Assembly (NCBI RefSeq): GCF_002310495.1
Contig: NZ_CP023344.1
Coordinates: 3,861,501-3,925,500, forward strand
Source: Nibricoccus aquaticus
Lineage (GTDB): Bacteria; Verrucomicrobiota; Verrucomicrobiia; Opitutales; Opitutaceae
DNA: 64,000 nt
Direction of reading: 5' to 3'
Shown here: positions 24,376-35,805 of the stretch, one piece after another
How positions within the stretch are numbered: position 1 is the first letter of the stretch
Layout: each line of letters begins with the position of its first letter
Program-made: the position numbers and the translations under genes
The notes under the pieces: generated by a model
What the model was told of the DNA's origin: nothing
What the model saw: the letters and a program-made list of their open reading frames with translations, nothing else
The model's database searches: none

Positions 24376-27336
24376 ATGACGCACTTCTTGAAAAACGTGG
24401 CGTTTGCCGGTGGCTGTTTCTTGAGCTCGGTTGCGATGATCGCGGCGGATGTGCCGGCTGCGCGTGAGGCGCTGGATTTTAATCCGGGCTGGCGGCTGCA
24501 CGTCGGCGATCCGGCGGGGGCGCAGGAGACGCGGTTCGATGATGCGGGATGGAAACCGGTGACGCTGCCGCGCGCGTGGAATGAGGACGAGGCGTTCAAG
24601 AAAGACATCAAGGATCTTTCCACGGGAATCGCATGGTATCGGAAGACGTTTGTGCTGCCGGCGGGGAGCGGAGGGCGGAAGGTGTTTCTCGAGTTTGAAG
24701 GTGTACGCCAGGCCGCCGAGGTGTGGATCAACGGCAAGCTGGTCGGCGGGCACGAGAATGGGATCAACGCCTTCGGGCTCGATGTGACCGAGCAGGTGCG
24801 GCCGGCGCCGGAGGCTAATGTGATCGCGGTGCGGACGGACAACGCGTGGGACTATCGTGAGCGGTTGTCGGGGGCGCGGTACCAGTGGTCGGATAAAAAT
24901 TTCAACGCGAACTACGGAGGCATTCCGAAGAATGTGCGGCTGCATGTGACGGACCGCGTCTATCAGACGCTGCCGCTGTATTCGCATCTCGGATCGACGG
25001 GCGTCTATGTGTACGCGACTGACTTCGATGTGGCGGCGCGGGTGGCGACGATTCATGCAGAGTCGGAGATCCGCAACGAGGCGACGGCGGCTAGGACGTT
25101 TGTCTATCGCGTGAAGGTGGCTGATCGCGACGGGCGCACGGTGGCGGAGTTCGATGGCGGACGTTATACGATTGCGCCTCGCGAGAGCGTGACGGCGCGG
25201 GCGTCGGCGCGGGTGAAGGAGCTGAATTTTTGGAGCTGGGGATACGGTTATCTTTATACGGTGACGACGTCGCTGGAGAGCGAGGGGCAGGTGTTTGATT
25301 CGGTCGTGACGCGTACAGGTTTTCGCAAAACGGAGTTCGGGCAGGGCGTAGTGAAACTGAATGATCGTGTGATTCAGCTGAAGGGCTACGCGCAGCGGAC
25401 GTCGAATGAGTGGCCGGCGCTGGGGATGTCGGTGCCACCGTGGTTAAGCGATTACAGCAACGGGCTGATGGTTGAGAGCGGGGCGAATCTGGTGCGCTGG
25501 ATGCACATCGCGCCGTGGAAGCAGGACGTGGAGTCGTGCGATCGCGTGGGGCTCATGCAGATGTTGCCCGCCGGAGACTCGGAGCGCGACGCGCAGGGAC
25601 GGCAGTGGGTGCAACGCCAGGAGGTGATGCGCGATGCGATCATCTACAACCGGAACAACCCCAGCGTACTGGTTTATGAGTCGGGCAACAACGGCATCAG
25701 CGAGGCACACATGGCGGACATGAAGGCGATCCGTGATCGTTTCGATCCGCACGGTGGGCGGGCGATCGGCAGTCGCGACATGCTCGACAGCCACGTCACG
25801 GAGTATGGCGGCGAGATGCTATACGTGAACAAGAGCGCGCGGCAGCCGATGTGGCAGACGGAATATTCGCGGGATGAAGGATTGCGAAAATATTGGGACG
25901 AGTTTTCGCCGCCGTATCACAAGGATGGCGAGGGGCCGCCGTATCGCGACGCGCCTGCGCCGACTTACAACCGGAATCAGGATACGCATGCGATCGAGAA
26001 CGTCGTCCGGTGGTACGACTTTTGGCGCGAGCGGCCGGGCACGGGCACGCGGGTGAACTCGGGCGGCGTGAACATCATCTTCTCCGACACGAACACGCAT
26101 TATCGCGGAGCGGAAAACTATCGCCGTAGCGGGGAAGTGGATGCCATGCGCATCGCGAAAGACGGGTTCTTCGCGCATCAAGTGATGTGGGACGGCTGGG
26201 TGGATGTGGAGACACCGCGCGCGCATATCCTCGGGCATTGGAACTATGCGGCGGGCGTGACGAAGCCGGTGACGGTGGTTTCGAGCGCGGAGTCGGTGGA
26301 GCTGTTTCTCAATGGGAAATCGCTCGGGCGTGGCGCGCAGAGCACGCGGTTTCTGTTCACGTTTCCGTCTGTCGCGTGGCAGCCAGGGACGCTCAGTGCG
26401 GTTGGCTACGATGCGAAGGGCGCGAAGATTTGTGAGGCGTCGCATGTGACGGCGGGAGAGCCGAGGGCACTCAAGCTTACGATTCAAAACGGGCCTGACG
26501 GATTGCGCGCCGACGCGGCGGATGTGGCGCTGGTGCAAGTCGAGGTGGTGGATGCGCAAGGGCGGCGGTGCCCGACGGCGCTGAACCTGGTGGACTTTGA
26601 GTTGAGCGGTCCGGCGGAATGGCGCGGCGGTATCGCACAGGGGCCGGATAACTTCATTTTGTCGCGATCGCTGCCGGTGGAGTGCGGGGTGAACCGCGTG
26701 TTGGTGCGCTCGACGTTGCAGGCGGGAAAAATTGTTCTGACTGCAAACGCGCAGGGGCTCGCATCGGCGAAGATCGAACTGGATTCACAGGCAGTGGAGA
26801 CGACCGATGGCTGGTCGCGCAACCCGAGTGCGGCGGCGCTGGCCGGACGTCTGGGTCGCGGGCCGACGCCGGGGACAACTTCGTTCAAAGTGACGCGGAA
26901 AGCGGTCGCGGTTGCCAAGGCTTCGGCACTGGATGGTGGCGATCCGGCGCTGGCGTTCGATGACAACGAGGAGACGGCGTGGTCGGGGAAGAAGGCGGTG
27001 ACGTTTGAGTTGTCGCGCGTGGCGCTGCTGAGCGAGATCACGCTGAAGACGGCGGGGTTTCGCGCGCGCAGTTATCCGATCCGGATCACGGTGGATGGTG
27101 TGGAAGTTTTTCGTGGCGTGACCGCGAGGAGCCTCGGGTATGTGACGCTGCCGCTGAAGCCGGTGGACGGGCGTGTCGTGCGCATCGAGCCCCTCGCTGG
27201 CAGCGAGGCGCGCGATGCGTTTGGCGGGATCACCGAGCTCGTGGATCAGAAGAACGCGACCACCGGCGAGCAGAACGTCGGCGCGGGAGCGCTGGGGATC
27301 ATCGAGATCGAGTTCTACGAGCCGGCGGAGTTGTGA
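24376..27336 (+). CDS. Secreted GH2-family glycoside hydrolase
   Basis: A 986-residue enzyme from the ATG at 24376, with a signal peptide (AFAGGCFLSSVAMIAAD). The GH2 architecture appears as a sugar-binding domain (GIAWYRKTFVLP; AEVWINGKLVGGHENG), an immunoglobulin-like domain, then a TIM barrel. The acid/base Glu435 is in VLVYESGNNGIS and the probable nucleophile Glu496 is in QTEYSRDEG. A DUF4982-like segment follows (AESVELFLNGKSLGRG). A C-terminal discoidin-like domain is suggested by DGGDPALAFDDNEETAWSG. Galactosidase or glucuronidase activity cannot be distinguished from sequence. About 65 bases separate it from the GH43 gene, suggesting one transcript. A longer frame begins upstream, but this ATG gives the signal peptide. 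Confidence 0.92.
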   Translation: MTHFLKNVAFAGGCFLSSVAMIAADVPAAREALDFNPGWRLHVGDPAGAQETRFDDAGWKPVTLPRAWNEDEAFKKDIKDLSTGIAWYRKTFVLPAGSGGRKVFLEFEGVRQAAEVWINGKLVGGHENGINAFGLDVTEQVRPAPEANVIAVRTDNAWDYRERLSGARYQWSDKNFNANYGGIPKNVRLHVTDRVYQTLPLYSHLGSTGVYVYATDFDVAARVATIHAESEIRNEATAARTFVYRVKVADRDGRTVAEFDGGRYTIAPRESVTARASARVKELNFWSWGYGYLYTVTTSLESEGQVFDSVVTRTGFRKTEFGQGVVKLNDRVIQLKGYAQRTSNEWPALGMSVPPWLSDYSNGLMVESGANLVRWMHIAPWKQDVESCDRVGLMQMLPAGDSERDAQGRQWVQRQEVMRDAIIYNRNNPSVLVYESGNNGISEAHMADMKAIRDRFDPHGGRAIGSRDMLDSHVTEYGGEMLYVNKSARQPMWQTEYSRDEGLRKYWDEFSPPYHKDGEGPPYRDAPAPTYNRNQDTHAIENVVRWYDFWRERPGTGTRVNSGGVNIIFSDTNTHYRGAENYRRSGEVDAMRIAKDGFFAHQVMWDGWVDVETPRAHILGHWNYAAGVTKPVTVVSSAESVELFLNGKSLGRGAQSTRFLFTFPSVAWQPGTLSAVGYDAKGAKICEASHVTAGEPRALKLTIQNGPDGLRADAADVALVQVEVVDAQGRRCPTALNLVDFELSGPAEWRGGIAQGPDNFILSRSLPVECGVNRVLVRSTLQAGKIVLTANAQGLASAKIELDSQAVETTDGWSRNPSAAALAGRLGRGPTPGTTSFKVTRKAVAVAKASALDGGDPALAFDDNEETAWSGKKAVTFELSRVALLSEITLKTAGFRARSYPIRITVDGVEVFRGVTARSLGYVTLPLKPVDGRVVRIEPLAGSEARDAFGGITELVDQKNATTGEQNVGAGALGIIEIEFYEPAEL

Positions 27337-27345
27337 GCGCGGGCG

Positions 27346-28698
27346 TCAGACGACGCGGTTTTCTTTCATGACCTGCGAGTACCAGTGCGCGCTGAGTTTC
27401 GGCGTGCGCTTCTGCGTGGCGTAATCGACGTAGACGATGCCGAAGCGTTTGCGGTAGCCCTCGGACCACTCGTAGTTGTCCATGAAGGACCAGAGGAAAT
27501 AACCCTTGAGCGGAACGCCCTCGGCGGTGGCGCGCTGGGCGGCGAGGAGGAAATTGCGCAGGTATTCGCGGCGGTGAAGGTCGAGGATTTCACCGTCGGC
27601 GTTGGGGGTGTCTTCGTAGCCCGCGCCGTTTTCGGTGATGTAGATGGATTTCACGCCGTAGAGCTCCTGGACATGGCGGGGCGTCCAGTAGTTGGACTGC
27701 GGTGTGTGGCGCAGCCAGGGGAGATCGGCTTGCGGAAAATTTCCGGTGAAGGGGAGGACGCGCCAGCGTTTGCGCTGCGCCTGCACATAGGAGCCGGCGT
27801 AGATGTTGAGGCCGAGGAAATCGGTAGGCTGCGAGATAAGCGCGAGATCGCCCTTCTGAACTTTCGGACGGTTGGCACCGGCGGCGCGGAGATAGCCGGC
27901 GGGGTAGTGGCCTTTGAAGACGGGATCGAGCAGGTGCCAGTTGCCTTCGTGGAAACACTTCCGGGCGGCGTCTATGTCGGCCGGGGTTTCGGTGAGCGGG
28001 AGATAGGACGGCGGGTTGTGGGTGAGGCCGACGGTGGCACCGCGGCCTCCGTGTTCGCGGACGGCGCGGACGGCGTGGCCGTGGGCGAGGAGGGCGTGGT
28101 GGTAGGCCTGGTTGACGACAGCGTCGGAGTCTTTGGTGCCCGGAGCGTGGATACCGTCTTTGAGAGAGAGGCCGATGAAGCAGGGGATCTCGTTAAGCGT
28201 GATCCAGCGTTTCACGCGGTCGCCGAGGGTTTTCACGACGGTGGTGGCGTAGGGAGCGAAGGCGTCGGGAGTGATGCGCGCGCGCCAGCCGCCGCGATCT
28301 TCGAGGGCTTGCGGGAGATCCCAGTGATAGAACGTGACCCAGGGCGTGATGCCGTGGGCGAGCAGGCGGTCGATGAGGCGGTCGTAGAAGGCGACGCCGG
28401 CGGGATTGAGCGAGCCGTCGCCCTGCGGGTAGAGGCGGCACCAGTTGATGGAGAGGCGGTAGTTTTTCGCACCGAGTTTTTTCATCAGGCGGAAGTCTTC
28501 GTCGAATCGGTGGTAGTGATCGCAGGCGATGGCGGGCGTGTCGCCGTTGAAAACTTTTCCGGGAGTGGCGGCGAAGCGGTCCCAGACGGACTCGCCTTTG
28601 CCGTCGGCGTTGGCGGCGCCTTCGATCTGGGTGGCGGCGGCGGCGACGCCCCAGGTGAAGTTTTTGGGGAAGGAGAGCGTGTTGATGTACTTGGGCAT
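27346..28698 (-). CDS. Cytoplasmic GH1 beta-glucosidase
   Basis: A 450-residue family 1 glycoside hydrolase. The N-terminal signature FTWGVAAAATQIEGA is followed by the acid/base Glu170 in TLNEIP and the nucleophile Glu356 in YITENGAGYED. There is no signal peptide, so it likely cleaves beta-glucosides or other beta-linked disaccharides that have been taken into the cell. It runs convergent to the GH2 gene, only ten bases away. It would complete the breakdown begun by the exported GH27, GH43 and GH2 enzymes, though no sugar transporter is visible nearby. Confidence 0.94.
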   Translation of the reverse strand: MPKYINTLSFPKNFTWGVAAAATQIEGAANADGKGESVWDRFAATPGKVFNGDTPAIACDHYHRFDEDFRLMKKLGAKNYRLSINWCRLYPQGDGSLNPAGVAFYDRLIDRLLAHGITPWVTFYHWDLPQALEDRGGWRARITPDAFAPYATTVVKTLGDRVKRWITLNEIPCFIGLSLKDGIHAPGTKDSDAVVNQAYHHALLAHGHAVRAVREHGGRGATVGLTHNPPSYLPLTETPADIDAARKCFHEGNWHLLDPVFKGHYPAGYLRAAGANRPKVQKGDLALISQPTDFLGLNIYAGSYVQAQRKRWRVLPFTGNFPQADLPWLRHTPQSNYWTPRHVQELYGVKSIYITENGAGYEDTPNADGEILDLHRREYLRNFLLAAQRATAEGVPLKGYFLWSFMDNYEWSEGYRKRFGIVYVDYATQKRTPKLSAHWYSQVMKENRVV

Positions 28699-28874
28699 GG
28701 GATTGAGGCTAAGGATCGTTTGCGAAGGTGATTATGGGGCGAAAAAATTAAGCGGACTTGGCGAGCGCTGCGCATCTGTGAGACGTCTTGTTGAGAAAAA
28801 TTCAACGCGCGGATGATTTTTTGCTACGAGTATTTGAAACTCAGTGTTTATGGGTAACGTCCTGAATACCTGAA

Positions 28875-29711
28875 ATGACGAGCCACGAAATACGACAAAC
28901 CCGGACAGCGCTCAAGATCACGCAGTCTGAACTCGCACGCCGGACCAATCTGAGTGCTTCGGACATCTCGCGCATCGAATGCGGGCACCGTGATGCCGAT
29001 GAAAATGAGCTCGCAGCCATCCGGGCGGCGCTTGGAAGCGGCACTGAATCCGTGGGGAAAGGTTTGATGAAAAGCAAAGTGGTGGAGCCCGTCCGGACTC
29101 CTGAAGTTCCGGTGGTCATCGTACCTGCGGAGATCAAGCCTGCGTTGACGGGGACGGATCTTGCCGATCCTACCAGCTTCGGCGTGCTGCCTGACCTGTC
29201 GCTTTTGGAATCTGCTCGTGCAGGTGCTGCTGATTTTCGCGCCCGATGCGCAGCTGAAATCGTGAAGGCCCAGACGATACTGCATACGCCGCGCGTGCCG
29301 GCGGCGGTATGGCGAGCGTGGCGGCAGTTTGAGAAAGAAGCGTCTGAGATGCTTCGCGCGGGGGCGGTCGTAGTGGAGAACCAAGCACCTGTGGTCCAGA
29401 CGCCACCGCCAGTCTTGCAGGCGGAGTCGGTTGTGATGGCGGAAGCCAAAGCGGAGTCTAAGAGCTTTGGCTCTCTGTTTGTGGAAGCGGCCCGTAAGCT
29501 TTTGCCTGCGGAGACGGTTGAGCGCCTGAACAAGGAGGCGGAGGCGGCACTGGCGGCTGATTCGTCGATGGGTTTTATGAAGCACTTCCGGCGGGTGGCG
29601 GAATCCACTTTGAGTGGGGAACTGCTCCAGCAGATTGCCGACGAGGCAGGCCGGTTGTTGAATTCGACGGATCGCTTGCGCAGTCGTCGTGGGCGCAAGC
29701 AGGCGGCTTAG
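28875..29711 (+). CDS. XRE-family DNA-binding protein with long C-terminal region
   Basis: A 278-residue protein with an N-terminal helix-turn-helix of the XRE/Cro type at about residues 5-55 (RTALKITQSELARRTNLSASDISRIECGHR). A linker with proline-rich stretches leads to a helical C-terminal part (about 125-278) that I do not recognise. The end is basic (RLRSRRGRKQAA). It probably binds an operator and may respond to a partner or ligand through the C-terminal part. The target is unknown. It is divergent from the GH1 gene, which makes that a candidate, but that is only inference. The start at ATG 28875 is clear. Confidence 0.75.
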   Translation: MTSHEIRQTRTALKITQSELARRTNLSASDISRIECGHRDADENELAAIRAALGSGTESVGKGLMKSKVVEPVRTPEVPVVIVPAEIKPALTGTDLADPTSFGVLPDLSLLESARAGAADFRARCAAEIVKAQTILHTPRVPAAVWRAWRQFEKEASEMLRAGAVVVENQAPVVQTPPPVLQAESVVMAEAKAESKSFGSLFVEAARKLLPAETVERLNKEAEAALAADSSMGFMKHFRRVAESTLSGELLQQIADEAGRLLNSTDRLRSRRGRKQAA

Positions 29712-29889
29712 CCGTGGATGGCGGAATGTTTGCCGGCGGCAGGGGCTTAGCGCTGTCGCCACCGATCTTTTTCGGGGCCGGTCAGATCTTCACGGTTACG
29801 GCGCTGACGAAGCAGCGCCCTCCATCGCAAGCGGACAACTCTCAAACAGCCCCTGGCACCACTTGGCTGAGGGCGGCTGATGGAGGGGC

Positions 29890-30576
29890 TTAGATTTTTC
29901 CGGGAAGGCTTGCCGTTTTGGCGGCTTTCTTCGATTCATGCCGAGCGCGCAGGAATTCAAAAACGATGGGAAGCACCGAGAGCAGGATGATCGCGAGGAT
30001 CACGATCTTGAAGTTTTTCTGAATAAAGGGGTGAGTGCCGAAGAGGTAACCCGCGTAGGTGAAGAAATAAATCCAGATGAAGCCGCCGATGATGTTGTAG
30101 GCGATGAAGCGGCTGTAGGTCATGTGGCCGATGCCGGCGACGAAAGGGACGAATGTACGCACGATCGGGACGAAGCGCGCGAGGATGATGGCACGGCCGC
30201 CGTATTTTTCGAAGAAGGCGTGGGCGCGTTCGAGGTGTTTTTTGCGCAGGAAGAAGGAGTCTTCACGGGCGAAGACGCGCGGGCCGATCTTGGAGCCGAT
30301 CCAGTAGTTGAGCGTGTCTCCGATCACGGCTGCGACGAACAGCAGGAGAGCCATCAGGTGGACGTTGAGTCCGGTGTCGGGCATCGCGCAAAACGCGCCG
30401 GCGGCAAACAGGAGCGAGTCGCCTGGCAGGAAAGGCGTCACGACGAGGCCGGTTTCGGCGAAGATGATCGCGAAGAGCACGGCATAGGTCCACAGCCCAT
30501 AATCCTGGATGATCTCAGCCAGGTGGGCGTCGATGTGGAGGATGAAGTCGATGAGCTTTTTGATGAGATCAATCAT
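29890..30576 (-). CDS. DedA-family inner membrane protein
   Basis: A 228-residue DedA/SNARE-associated family protein with four to five membrane spans. It has the family motif FLPGDSLLFAAGAF and the loop GGRAIILARFVPIVRTFVPFVAGIGHM with conserved Arg and Pro. DedA proteins are thought to act in membrane homeostasis and lipid-linked carrier (undecaprenyl phosphate) translocation. The ATG at 30576 (MIDLIKKLID) is preferred over an upstream extension of 60 Ser/Pro-rich residues. The upstream extension would run through the small basic protein gene at 30668 on the same strand in another frame. A terminator lies between that gene and this one. Confidence 0.93.
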   Translation of the reverse strand: MIDLIKKLIDFILHIDAHLAEIIQDYGLWTYAVLFAIIFAETGLVVTPFLPGDSLLFAAGAFCAMPDTGLNVHLMALLLFVAAVIGDTLNYWIGSKIGPRVFAREDSFFLRKKHLERAHAFFEKYGGRAIILARFVPIVRTFVPFVAGIGHMTYSRFIAYNIIGGFIWIYFFTYAGYLFGTHPFIQKNFKIVILAIILLSVLPIVFEFLRARHESKKAAKTASLPGKI

Positions 30577-30610
30577 GGAAGAACCGGGCCGGGCAGGAGA
30601 TTTTGGACGC

Positions 30611-30645
30611 AAAAAAGGCAGGCGTGTGAGACACAGCCTGCCTTT
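30611..30645 (-). terminator. Intrinsic terminator of the small basic protein gene
   Basis: The stem is AAAGGCAGGC (30614-30623) with GCCTGCCTTT (30636-30645). On the minus strand it is followed by six T residues (A run at 30611-30616 on the plus strand). It lies about 20 bases past the small basic protein stop codon and ahead of the DedA start. Confidence 0.85.
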
Positions 30646-30667
30646 GATTGAAAGGGCGTGAGACGGA

Positions 30668-30823
30668 TTAGACGTCGGGCTTGGTTTTGCGGAGACCCTG
30701 GACGCGGTCGCCGGCTTTCCACTGGCCACGCTTTTTGAGGATGTCGACGCGCTCAAAGCGCTTCAGAACGTTACGTTTAACGACGAGGCCGTTGGCTCCT
30801 TGGAGACTTTTATGTTGGGACAT
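30668..30823 (-). CDS. Chlamydiae/Verrucomicrobia small basic protein (51 residues)
   Basis: A short gene: ATG at 30823, TAA at 30668-30670. The translation begins MSQHKSLQGANGLVVKRNVL and continues KRFERVDILKKRGQWKAGDR, then VQGLRKTKPDV. The KRNVLKRFER segment, the KxKKRGxW segment and the KTKP ending match the small basic protein family shared by Chlamydiae, Verrucomicrobia and Planctomycetes (I recall TIGR04137). It is rich in Lys and Arg, so RNA or ribosome binding is a reasonable guess, but the function is not established. It is transcribed on its own, with a clear terminator after it. It is easily missed because it is so short. It supports placing the organism in this superphylum. Confidence 0.88.
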   Translation of the reverse strand: MSQHKSLQGANGLVVKRNVLKRFERVDILKKRGQWKAGDRVQGLRKTKPDV

Positions 30824-30860
30824 GGCGGAATAAAGTAGGTGGTTCGATTCTGTGAAAGGG

Positions 30861-31175
30861 TCAGTTGTAAGTGTTCGCCTTTACCCATGACAAGTATTTT
30901 TCCGAAACGTTTTCGGTGCGAACGGTGATCCATTCGGGCGTTTTGTATGGGTGATGGGTGAGCAGCCACTTTTCGATGTCGGACTCACGTGTGGCGATGA
31001 ACTTAATGGAAATGCGGAATTCCTCTGATCGTTCGGTACGGCCCTCCCATGAGTAGAAAGATGTGATCGGTCCTTCGATTTGGACGCAGGCGGCGAGACG
31101 CGATTCGATGAGTCCAGCGGCCAGAGTTTCGGCTTGCGGCATTGTGGCGACGGTTGTCCAACCGATCATTAGCAT
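30861..31175 (-). CDS. cutA: CutA divalent-ion tolerance protein
   Basis: A 104-residue CutA1-like protein forming trimers with ferredoxin-like subunits. Family features are MIGWTTV, LAACVQIEGPITSFYSWEG, EEFRISIKF, and HPYKTPEWI near the C-terminus. It is linked to copper or divalent-metal tolerance in E. coli, but the direct role is unclear. It starts at the ATG 31175 (or one two codons later), and transcription runs toward the small basic protein. A divergent promoter region of about 115 bases separates it from rpoZ. Confidence 0.9.
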   Translation of the reverse strand: MLMIGWTTVATMPQAETLAAGLIESRLAACVQIEGPITSFYSWEGRTERSEEFRISIKFIATRESDIEKWLLTHHPYKTPEWITVRTENVSEKYLSWVKANTYN

Positions 31176-31289
31176 GGGCTCAAAATTGGTGGCGGCTAGA
31201 GGTGCGCAAGCAGGGAAAAATGCCCTTGACGGTGCTAATTTTTAAGCCTGCGCTACGCGGTTTCATCGCAGCCATTCACCCAGTTATTC

Positions 31290-31502
31290 ATGAGAGACGA
31301 CTATCTTAAGGAAGCCCAGAAGGTCATCAATGACCCCAACGTTTTGATCAACGTGGTGTCGCGTCGCGTGAAACAGCTCAAGCGTGGCAGCCGTCCGCTC
31401 GTGGAGTCGCTCGAAAAGCTTTCTTCCGAAGACGTTGCATTGCGCGAAGTGATCGAAGGCAAAATCAGCTTCGAACTCGCGGTTGGCGCCACTAACAACT
31501 AA
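31290..31502 (+). CDS. rpoZ: RNA polymerase omega subunit
   Basis: A 70-residue protein with the omega signature NDPNVLINVVSRRVKQLKRG and RPLVESLEK, followed by SSEDVALREVIEGKISFE. Omega helps fold and assemble the beta-prime subunit. The ATG at 31290 gives a normal length. A TTGACG at 31226-31231 upstream is a weak candidate -35 box. It starts a run with smpB, thrB and trmL on the same strand; the 68-base spacing to smpB suggests linkage but not necessarily one transcript. Confidence 0.85.
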   Translation: MRDDYLKEAQKVINDPNVLINVVSRRVKQLKRGSRPLVESLEKLSSEDVALREVIEGKISFELAVGATNN

Positions 31503-31570
31503 GTGTTGCGCGTAATCGCGCTGAGGCCGACTGGCGGCTGAGCCCTAAGCCCGGCGCTGATTGAGCCTCT

Positions 31571-32047
31571 ATGTCCGCCCAGAAAAAAGATCCGAATCGC
31601 TACACGGAGATCCGCAATGCCAAGGCGCTGCGGGATTACTCCGTGGACGAAAAATTTGAGGCGGGTCTCGCGCTGAAGGGGACTGAAGTGAAATCGATTC
31701 GTGCGGGACGGGCCCAGATCAGCGACTCGTTTGGGCGATTCGATAAGGGCGAGCTGTGGATGATGAATGCGCACATCGAGGAGTATGCGTATGGAAATAT
31801 TGCGAATCATATCACGCGGCGTACGCGAAAGTTGCTTCTGCACAAACATCAGATCCGCAAGATCGCGCAGGCGATGCAGGTGAGCGGGAAGGCGCTGATT
31901 CCGCTGCGCATGTATTTCAAAGAGGCGCTGGTGAAGGTGGAAGTCGCGCTCTGCACCGGAAAAAAGAATTACGACAAACGCGACGATCTGAAGAAGAAGG
32001 CCGAGATGGACGAAGTGAAAAAGCAGATGAAGACCCACCGGCTATGA
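31571..32047 (+). CDS. smpB: SsrA-binding protein SmpB
   Basis: A 158-residue SmpB that binds tmRNA and delivers it to stalled ribosomes for trans-translation. The family core is seen in NAKALRDYSVDEKFEAGLALKGTEVKSIR, then EEYAYGNI, and the C-terminal tail KKKAEMDEVKKQMK that helps decode the empty A site. No ssrA (tmRNA) gene is recognised in the window. Its stop overlaps the start of thrB (ATGA), so the two are translationally coupled. Confidence 0.95.
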   Translation: MSAQKKDPNRYTEIRNAKALRDYSVDEKFEAGLALKGTEVKSIRAGRAQISDSFGRFDKGELWMMNAHIEEYAYGNIANHITRRTRKLLLHKHQIRKIAQAMQVSGKALIPLRMYFKEALVKVEVALCTGKKNYDKRDDLKKKAEMDEVKKQMKTHRL

Positions 32048-32961
32048 GTCAGCTGTCTCTGCCTGACTCAGTCACGTTGCGCGTTCCTGGAAGCACGTCT
32101 AACTGCGGGGCCGGTTTCGATACGCTCGGGCTGGCGTTGCAGATCTATAATCGGGTCACGCTGAAGCGGGCTGGTTCTGGGTCGGAGATCACGGCGAGTC
32201 GCGAGGAAGATGCTCGCGGGCAGAAGATGGTGGAGACGACGGCGAAGGCGTTTTTTGCGGCAGCGGAGGTCGAGCGTTTTGGGTTTTCGTTTGAGGTGAA
32301 CGGAGAGGTGCCGCCTGCGCGTGGACTTGGCTCCAGCATGACGGTGATTGGCGGGGTGCTGGCGGGTTTGAATGAGTTGTCGGGCGCGAGATTGTCGCGG
32401 CATCAGTTGGTGGAGATCGCGAATGAACTCGAAGGGCATCCGGATAATGCGTCGGCGGCGATCCTCGGTGGATTTTGTGTGGCGAGGTGTGATCCGAAGA
32501 CGAACCGGTATCTGGGTGTCGTGCGCGTGCCGATTTCGGACGAGTTGGTTTTCGTCGTGGCGTCGCCGAGCGTGGAAATGCTGACGAAGGAGTCGCGCGG
32601 CGTGCTGCCGGAGAGGCTTTCATACTTCGATGCGGTGAAGAGCATCAACAGCGCGGCGTTTTTTGCGGCGGCGCTAGCGACGAAGGATTACGCGCAGCTA
32701 CGATACGCTGTCTGTGATTTCATGCATGAACCTTACCGGTTGCCGCGTATTCCGAATGGGCGCATGGCGATCGATGCGGGCATCGTGGCGGGGGCGCTCA
32801 CGGGCTGGTTGAGCGGTAGCGGATCGAGCGTACTGTGTCTGGCGATGCGCGGGAGCGAGGCGGCGGTGGGGCAGGCGATGAGGTCGGCGTTTGCCGAGGT
32901 GAAGATCGCGTGCGAGGTACGGACGCTCATCGCGGACAATGACGGACTGAAGGTTGAGTGA
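32044..32961 (+). CDS. thrB: Homoserine kinase
   Basis: A GHMP-family kinase that phosphorylates homoserine on the way to threonine. It has 305 residues from the ATG at 32044, which overlaps the smpB stop codon by four bases. The GHMP ATP motif PPARGLGSSMT (residues 90-100) is present, along with the N-terminal VPGSTSNCGAGFDTLG and C-terminal WLSGSGSSVLCL. The family's substrate Asn/His segment reads IANELEGHPDNASAAILGG. ThrA and ThrC are not in the window. It is followed by trmL 10 bases downstream. Confidence 0.95.
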   Translation: MSQLSLPDSVTLRVPGSTSNCGAGFDTLGLALQIYNRVTLKRAGSGSEITASREEDARGQKMVETTAKAFFAAAEVERFGFSFEVNGEVPPARGLGSSMTVIGGVLAGLNELSGARLSRHQLVEIANELEGHPDNASAAILGGFCVARCDPKTNRYLGVVRVPISDELVFVVASPSVEMLTKESRGVLPERLSYFDAVKSINSAAFFAAALATKDYAQLRYAVCDFMHEPYRLPRIPNGRMAIDAGIVAGALTGWLSGSGSSVLCLAMRGSEAAVGQAMRSAFAEVKIACEVRTLIADNDGLKVE

Positions 32962-32971
32962 GCCTGCGCTC

Positions 32972-33439
32972 ATGCTGCACATCGTCCTTTTTCAGCCGGA
33001 GATTCCGCAGAACACGGGAAACATCGGGCGCATGTGTGCGCTGACGAAGTCACGGCTGCATTTGATTCATCCACTCGGCTACACGATCACAGACCGGCAT
33101 TTGAAACGGGCGGGGATGGATTACTGGCATTCGCTCGATGTGCATCATCACGAGGACTGGAAATCGTTTCGGGCGAGCGCGGCGGGGCCGAAGCGGCTGT
33201 GGTTGTTCACGACGAAGACGACGCAGTCGTTTTGGAGTGTGAAGTACGAGAGCGGCGACGGGCTGGTGTTTGGCAACGAAGGGCACGGTGCGCCGGAGTG
33301 GCTGCATCAGGAGTTTGGTGACGCGATGCGGGTGACGATTCCTCATGCCGATCCGACGTTGCGGTCGCTCAACTTGAGCACGGCGGCGGGTATCGCGTGT
33401 TATGAGGCGGTGCGGCAGGTGGGGTTTGGGGCGCCGTGA
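32972..33439 (+). CDS. trmL: tRNA (cytidine(34)-2'-O)-methyltransferase TrmL
   Basis: A SPOUT-class methyltransferase of 155 residues that 2'-O-methylates the wobble base of tRNA-Leu. It shows the N-terminal VLFQPEIPQNTGNIGRMCA and the knotted C-terminal motifs LVFGNEGHGAPEW and RSLNLSTAAGIACYEA, typical of TrmL. The ATG at 32972 is preferred over a TTG at 32954 that overlaps the thrB stop. It is the last gene of the rpoZ-smpB-thrB-trmL run. Amino acid synthesis, tRNA modification and ribosome rescue genes here share a strand, likely one operon. Confidence 0.93.
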   Translation: MLHIVLFQPEIPQNTGNIGRMCALTKSRLHLIHPLGYTITDRHLKRAGMDYWHSLDVHHHEDWKSFRASAAGPKRLWLFTTKTTQSFWSVKYESGDGLVFGNEGHGAPEWLHQEFGDAMRVTIPHADPTLRSLNLSTAAGIACYEAVRQVGFGAP

Positions 33440-33495
33440 GTGTGCGTAGTTGGGGGCGGCACTTGCTAAGTTCCGGTCCGTTGGACCGCTCGCGG

Positions 33496-33723
33496 CTACT
33501 TGGCAACGGTACGCAGGTAGAGTTCTTCGACTTTGGTGCGGGCCCAGGGGGTGCGGCGGAGGAATTGGAGACTGGATTTCACGCTGGGATCGAAGTTGAA
33601 GCAGCGGATGTCGATGCGGCGGCCGAGTTCGGCCCAGCCGTGTTTTTCGACGAGCTGGGTGAGGATCATTTCCAGGGTGATCCCGTGGAGGGGGTCTTTG
33701 GGTTTTTGCGTAGGCTGATCCAT
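33496..33723 (-). CDS. DUF2132/VF530-like small protein
   Basis: A 75-residue protein of the VF530/DUF2132 family, which is mostly helical and thought to bind nucleic acid. Recognisable segments are [21 protein letters not shown] and [23 protein letters not shown], which match the family consensus. It is the last gene of a same-strand run that includes two oligopeptide ABC ATPases, with 19 bases between. No other clue to function. Confidence 0.85.
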
Positions 33724-33742
33724 GAGCTGAGAGGAGACGTGG

Positions 33743-34726
<984 letters not shown>

Positions 34727-34827
34727 GGGCGGATTTTTAACCACAGATTTCACGGATGGGACCGGATGAATCGGAGCCCGGCACGGGTCTCTCGAAGACT
34801 GGCGTTTTGAAATTCATTAGGTGGGCG

Positions 34828-35805
34828 TTATTGGATTTCGCCGGCTTGGACGCGGAGGCAGGCGTGGCGGTGGCCGGGTTTTTCTTCGGCGAGTTCGGGT
34901 GTTTCGACGCGGCAACGGTCGGCGGCGAATTCGCAGCGTGGGGCGAAGGCGCAGCCGGGGGGGAGCTTGGAGACGTCGGGCGGGAGGCCTTGGATGGTGT
35001 AGAGCTCGGAGCCTTTGGGCTGGAGGCCGGGGATGGATCGCTGGAGGCCTCGGGTGTAGGGATGTTTCGGATCGTAGAAGAGTGTGCGGACGTCGGCGGT
35101 TTCGACGATGCGGCCGGCGTACATGACCATGACGCGGTCGCAGAGGCCGGAGACGACTCCTAGGTCGTGCGTGATGAAGATCACGGCCATGCCGAGCTCG
35201 CGCTGCATTTTTTTGATGAGCTCGAGGATCTGCGCCTGGACGGTGACGTCGAGGGCGGTGGTGGGTTCGTCGGCGATGAGGAGCTCGGGTTTCGTGATCA
35301 GCGCCATGGCGATCATGACGCGCTGTCTCATGCCGCCTGAGAACTCGTGCGGGTAATAGTGGATACGCTTGGCGGCGTCGTTGATGCCTACGGCTTGAAG
35401 CATTTCGAGTCCGCGGGCGAGGGCGTCGGCGCGGGAGATTTTTTCGTGGATGAGGAGCGGTTCGATGAGTTGCTCGGAGATCCGCATGTACGGATTGAGC
35501 GAGGTCATTGGATCCTGGAAAATCATGGCGACGCGTTTGCCGCGGATGGCGCGGGCCTGGGCGGGCGTGCAGTGGAGGAGGTCCACGCCGTCGAACATCG
35601 CGCGGCCGCTGGCGATGCGGCCGGGAGGCTGGGGGATGAGGCCCATCAGCGAGTAGCAGGTGACGGATTTGCCGGAGCCGGATTCGCCGACAAGGCCGAG
35701 GGTTTCACCGCGTTCGAGATCGAAGCTGACGCCGTCGACGGCGCGGTACACGCCGCTGCGGGTGTGGAAGTGAGTGCGGAGGTCTTGGACGGAGAGGAGC
35801 GGCAC
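34828..35805 (-). CDS. Oligopeptide/dipeptide ABC transporter ATP-binding protein (OppD/DppD type)
   Basis: A 325-residue ABC ATPase, the usual partner of the downstream OppF-type gene. Features are GESGSGKSVTCYSLMG (Walker A region), FSGGMRQRVMIAMAL (signature), LLIADEPTTALDV (Walker B) and FITHDLGVVSG (H-loop). The C-terminal GCAFAPRCEFAADRC Cys motif is diagnostic of the OppD/DppD class. It sits about 70 bases downstream of the acyltransferase-glycosyltransferase gene and about 100 bases upstream of the OppF-type gene, on the same strand. The permeases must be elsewhere. Confidence 0.94.
   Translation of the reverse strand: MPLLSVQDLRTHFHTRSGVYRAVDGVSFDLERGETLGLVGESGSGKSVTCYSLMGLIPQPPGRIASGRAMFDGVDLLHCTPAQARAIRGKRVAMIFQDPMTSLNPYMRISEQLIEPLLIHEKISRADALARGLEMLQAVGINDAAKRIHYYPHEFSGGMRQRVMIAMALITKPELLIADEPTTALDVTVQAQILELIKKMQRELGMAVIFITHDLGVVSGLCDRVMVMYAGRIVETADVRTLFYDPKHPYTRGLQRSIPGLQPKGSELYTIQGLPPDVSKLPPGCAFAPRCEFAADRCRVETPELAEEKPGHRHACLRVQAGEIQ

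Follow-up and report, generated by a model that had tools for sequence, protein, structure and literature searches.

The closest described relatives of the gene treated here are the members of NCBIfam family TIGR04137 ("small basic protein", Chlam_Ver_rRNA). The family is taken to be the same as protein CT421.2 of Chlamydia trachomatis, and this link is drawn from size, name, and distribution, not from a sequence comparison. In a reviewer's comment printed with PMC2474590, CT421.2 is described as unique to the PVC phyla. The passages of PMC3444138 that deal with the protein treat it as a signature of PVC bacteria whose function is unknown, a protein that links Planctomycetes, Verrucomicrobia, Lentisphaerae, and Chlamydiae, and report no match outside PVC bacteria and none in Poribacteria. 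In the corresponding section of PMC5041132, a homologue serves as PVC evidence, and Lagkouvardos et al. are cited for the signature protein. No function for the small basic protein was found in the consulted parts of the open-licence literature searched. The value of the protein as a lineage marker, put forward in a first, sequence-only reading of this DNA, is borne out and already published in the cited parts of PMC2474590 and PMC3444138.

The small basic protein gene and its family

The window, i.e., the whole stretch of 64,000 nt of Nibricoccus aquaticus DNA that was analysed, contains the gene as a minus-strand ORF (30823-30668) with an ATG start. The coordinates of the gene and of the features around it are collected in Table 1. 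The encoded protein (MSQHKSLQG...KTKPDV) has 51 aa and is Lys/Arg-rich exactly as read from the sequence alone, with 14 K/R against 4 D/E residues and a pI of 11.4. Membership in the small basic protein family had been proposed as well, with a missing family match named as what would speak against it; when the protein was searched with the family model, the match was present. TIGR04137 scored 89.1 bits (E 1.2e-25) against a curated cut-off of 50 bits, and the match is near full-length, covering model positions 1-49 of 50. No Pfam family was matched at E 1. The genome of N. aquaticus carries one TIGR04137 copy.

Table 1. Features of the small basic protein locus, in window coordinates
Feature	Position	Strand	Evidence
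PVC small basic protein gene (TIGR04137)	30668..30823	-	ORF, family score, pN/pS
Intrinsic terminator, stem GGCAGGC/GCCTGCC and six T	30611..30645	-	Fold z-score, recurrence in relatives
cutA, upstream neighbour, 3' end holds predicted promoter	30861..31175	-	Pfam CutA1, E 8e-29
Predicted -35, TTGTCA, within final cutA codons	30888..30893	-	Motif position, codon bias, retention without cutA
Predicted -10 region, TTACAA (17 nt spacing) or TACAAC (18)	30864..30870	-	Column conservation
CCCTTT block, about the expected transcription start	30855..30860	-	Column conservation

Above the cut-off, 143 of 145 sampled phylum genomes, or 79 of 81 genera, have a TIGR04137 match, and none of the 14 control genomes has one. 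It is present in a single copy in 142 of the 145 phylum genomes, and one more (draft genome G087) has a split match. The two pieces of this split match lie on contig 5 of G087, at 96425-96599. Genomes G071 and G084, drafts of 96-97% completeness, have no copy, even when searched with a looser profile of 71 sequences at E 1; either assembly gaps or dispensability of the protein would explain this. Phage, plasmid, and viral collections were searched with no confirmed match, which fits a core gene and not a mobile one.

For comparison across the phylum, one genome per genus was used (71 loci, covering 71 of the 79 genera in which the family was found), and close relatives were represented by the best 80 of 560 relatives from a genome-contig profile scan, which thus bears on near relatives and not on how far the family extends. 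Over the 71 loci, protein length ranges from 49 to 53 aa. Residues M1, H4, V19, R25, and K46 are invariant in the alignment of the 71 sequences and eleven further positions are at least 90% conserved; the non-basic residues S2, S6, G33, G43, L44, and T47 are conserved at this level. Substitution rates were computed between the window and 76 of the best 80 of 560 relatives, all with the same length of 153 nt, the four of other length being excluded. In all 76 comparisons pN is lower than pS, and the medians are 0.096 for pN, 0.58 for pS, and 0.17 for pN/pS, the last value being approximate as pS is near saturation. Judged by these substitutions, the gene is under purifying selection.

The length of the ORF alone is no evidence for so small a gene, because 84 ORFs of at least 40 aa overlap positions 26000-35500 of the window. 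This abundance and the shortness of the frame are what a chance ORF has in its favour, but a family score far over the cut-off, the occurrence in nearly all sampled genomes, and the purifying selection refute this reading and leave it a negligible probability. The score, the distribution, the narrow range of lengths, and the low pN/pS together make the ORF a genuine gene, and the original observation is confirmed. That standard ORF cut-offs would miss the gene is only partly true: NCBI keeps a dedicated model for it. In length, basic character, single copy, and phylum-wide presence the protein agrees with TIGR04137, and no difference from the family was seen in it. It belongs to this known family as an ordinary member, with nothing new seen in the protein itself.

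Predicted promoter within the end of cutA

The one thing that this analysis adds to the already known family is the overlap of the predicted promoter with the upstream gene cutA. The NCBIfam CutA models match this neighbour below their cut-offs. Both genes have the same direction, and the small gene starts 37 nt past the cutA stop. Among the best 80 of 560 relatives, cutA is immediately upstream in 54 loci, and 26 are without a cutA match.

The sequence CTTGTC[A/T] was found 66-93 nt before the ATG in 57 of 81 sequences (the window and the best 80 of 560 relatives), and in 53 of these 57 it stands at 69-76 nt. As the 57 sequences were chosen by these first seven bases, only the columns after them count as evidence. 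Of these columns, the pair TA located 17 nt after the -35 has T at 0.88 and A at 0.81. The -10 is a weak match to the sigma-70 consensus, and the second base of the window at 17 nt is T. Further downstream, one position of the CCCTTT block is T in 57 of 57 sequences, with C at 0.91-0.93 just before it; the block is kept whether the cutA stop lies ahead of it, which is the arrangement in the window, or overlaps the end of the block. The pattern has a single occurrence in the whole genome of N. aquaticus. The predicted promoter spans 30855-30894 on the minus strand and is seen at the same place in related loci. A simple promoter scan of the window, which requires a final T in the -10, found no promoter, and the predicted -10 has no final T.

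The codons of cutA over the motif are nearly fixed. Codons for EKYLxW occur in 53 of the 54 cutA matches among the best 80 of 560 relatives, and the match to the remaining one does not cover the motif. In all 53 cutA genes the Leu of EKYLSW is encoded by TTG, a codon that accounts for 9.3% of the 420 remaining Leu codons of these genes; the Ser is encoded by TCA in 48 of 53, while TCA has a share of 5.8% in the rest of cutA.

Four of the 26 loci without a cutA match (L039, L057, L072, and L091) keep CTTGTC[A/T] 70-74 nt before the ATG. One frame still reads EKYLS across the motif in L039, L072, and L091, and L091 also retains a weak match to cutA (E 0.02); in L057 the motif is kept with no cutA reading over it. 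By their sequence, L039, L072, and L091 look like loci in which cutA was lost or has decayed except for the tip that holds the promoter. The motif is absent in the other 22 of these 26 loci from the best 80 relatives, 20 of them in records not titled Opitutae or Opitutaceae. The remaining two of the 22 are L083, whose upstream sequence is limited to 37 nt, and L062, which has CTTGTG instead of the motif. The exact motif is also absent in the cutA-bearing loci L041 and L100.

Because the cutA codons are near-fixed, the motif is conserved together with the TA and CCCTTT columns, and it is kept in places without cutA, the small basic protein gene probably has its own promoter, which would overlap the 3' end of cutA. 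An operon with cutA as the sole mode of expression is disfavoured by the four cutA-less loci that keep the motif. Read-through from cutA into the small gene is possible, given the common direction and the short distance between the two genes. The sequence-only reading had called the gene free-standing; the comparison of promoters speaks for this, while the co-directional cutA, 37 nt away, and the possible read-through from it stand against a gene wholly on its own. The predicted leader is about 35 nt long.

A Shine-Dalgarno-like motif was seen before the small gene in 0 of 51 sequences (the window and the 50 loci L032-L081) and, with a slightly wider list of motifs, in 55 of the 71 phylum-wide loci. 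In the ribosomal-protein operon of N. aquaticus, 6 of 16 starts have such a motif; the random value is 5.6%.

Terminator and gene neighbourhood

The claim that the gene has its own terminator holds well. The hairpin is followed by six T, and the 68-nt terminator stretch folds at -22.4 kcal/mol, with z of -5.35 against 200 shuffles. A simple terminator scan, with its loop limit of 8, missed the hairpin at 30611-30645. Terminator-like hairpins within 110 nt after the gene were found in 65 of 81 sequences (the window and the best 80 of 560 relatives), compared with 20 of 200 random segments; phylum-wide the values are 44 of 71 loci and 30 of 284. The exact GGCAGGC/GCCTGCC stem is present in 26 of 80 related loci (best 80 of 560), aligned 3' of the gene, and the stem pattern has one site in the whole genome of N. 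aquaticus. The stem was also considered as a regulatory element conserved in sequence and was rejected, as the mean identity of its 3' arm is 0.50 over the 62 loci with a usable terminator, hardly above the 0.47 of terminator-like sites after rpoZ (32 loci). Opitutaceae and near relatives are the only members of the best 80 of 560 relatives in which the promoter embedded in cutA and the GGCAGGC terminator were observed. As a whole, the earlier interpretation of family, own terminator, and marker value is supported.

No conserved partner gene was found over the 71 loci, where the largest cluster of neighbours comprises 9 loci; neighbours were called with a simple longest-ORF caller and clustered by BLAST only, and some of them are likely spurious. 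A same-strand gene within 60 nt is present upstream in 7 of 71 loci and downstream in 7 of 71. The neighbourhood was therefore rejected as a guide to function, as no partner is conserved over the 71 loci. On the opposite strand, rpoZ and smpB adjoin the small gene in the window and in many close relatives. An Rfam search of positions 28000-34000 gave no element.

Predicted structure and possible function

The predicted model of the protein has a helix at residues 22-32 and a short helix turn at 5-8, with the rest extended (mean pLDDT 80.2, pTM 0.52). It is what would be expected of a small RNA-binding protein that becomes ordered on its target, which is no proof of such a role. Foldseek gave no match at E 0.001, a fold test that is weak for a model of 51 aa with pTM of 0.52, and, up to E 10, six chains without any evident relation. 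Sequence and profile searches of PDB chains at E 10 gave no match either.

In its own genome, the codon score of the small gene is 0.27, close to 0.28 of the ribosomal-protein operon, with a background mean of -0.39; against 339 background pieces the gene stands at the 86th percentile. The test is weak when 19 genomes are taken together, with a median percentile of 0.65, values of at least 0.9 in 3 of 19 and values below 0.3 in 4 of 19, and with backgrounds of 4-8 ORFs each outside the genome of N. aquaticus. Codon usage was for this reason not accepted as a sign of high expression.

The protein could be a housekeeping factor that is made constitutively and binds nucleic acids, most likely as part of the ribosome or as a ribosome-assembly protein that binds rRNA, a reading to which we give about an even chance. 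Contact with rRNA would be made by a single short basic helix at residues 22-32 together with the extended basic arms that flank it. Many small ribosomal proteins bind rRNA through a helix plus extended basic arms, and bS21 and its kin are small, basic ribosomal proteins, which the protein resembles in size and charge. Unlike these proteins, it has no detectable sequence or fold similarity to any solved chain, and the failure to match any PDB sequence, although the PDB holds many ribosomes, counts against a place on the ribosome. In the stretch of the N. aquaticus ribosomal-protein operon that was read, the small basic protein gene is absent.

The main rival is a general nucleic-acid-binding protein, nucleoid-associated or histone-like and unspecific for DNA or RNA, which we regard as unlikely, if worth keeping in sight. 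The very basic character of the protein and its mostly extended model would suit such a binder, and Lagkouvardos et al. reportedly found expression of the small basic protein and unspecific DNA and RNA binding of the purified protein. However, the conserved positions include non-basic ones, with H4 and V19 invariant and the six residues named above at 90% or more, and the length is near-fixed; such conservation seems to exceed what binding by bulk charge needs. A role as an accessory factor of translation or RNA turnover (RNA chaperone, assembly, or hibernation factor) with part-time binding to the ribosome draws on the same sequence evidence as a ribosomal protein and gains something from the adjacent rpoZ and smpB. 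But this neighbourhood is confined to close relatives and neighbours are not conserved phylum-wide, and we hold such a role to be rather improbable.

A more specific form of the ribosomal reading concerns uL30 (PF00327). None of the 39 sampled Verrucomicrobiota genomes gave a match to it, against 13 of 14 control genomes, Synechococcus being the control without it; bS21 is present in all 39 sampled phylum genomes. In the ribosomal-protein operon of N. aquaticus (L183), with genes named by eye, rplO comes 167 nt after rpsE, and the gap has no ORF of at least 45 aa on that strand. The part of PMC3353972 that treats uL30 infers several independent losses in bacteria and names cyanobacteria as also without it. 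The absence of uL30 from the sampled genomes, the empty gap between rpsE and rplO, and the near-universal small protein led to the idea of a PVC-specific stoichiometric ribosomal protein that moved into, or stabilises, the site on 23S rRNA emptied by loss of uL30. We consider this idea very unlikely. Its support is co-occurrence in one phylum, and this may possibly be one shared event there. Against a replacement stand Synechococcus, which is without uL30 and also without TIGR04137, and G071 and G084, which have neither protein; uL30 was not found in G087 either. Also, the predicted model of the small protein shows no strands, whereas the structure of uL30 contains them.

Implications

A place among the ribosomal proteins, if confirmed, would make the small basic protein a part of the ribosome specific to the superphylum. 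With its own predicted promoter, its own terminator, a leader of about 35 nt, and no partner, the gene is best studied by itself rather than within an operon. The predicted overlap with cutA would be a clear, if small, case in which the codons of one gene are fixed by the promoter of the next, and cutA here would be a gene that may be lost save for the tip holding its neighbour's promoter.
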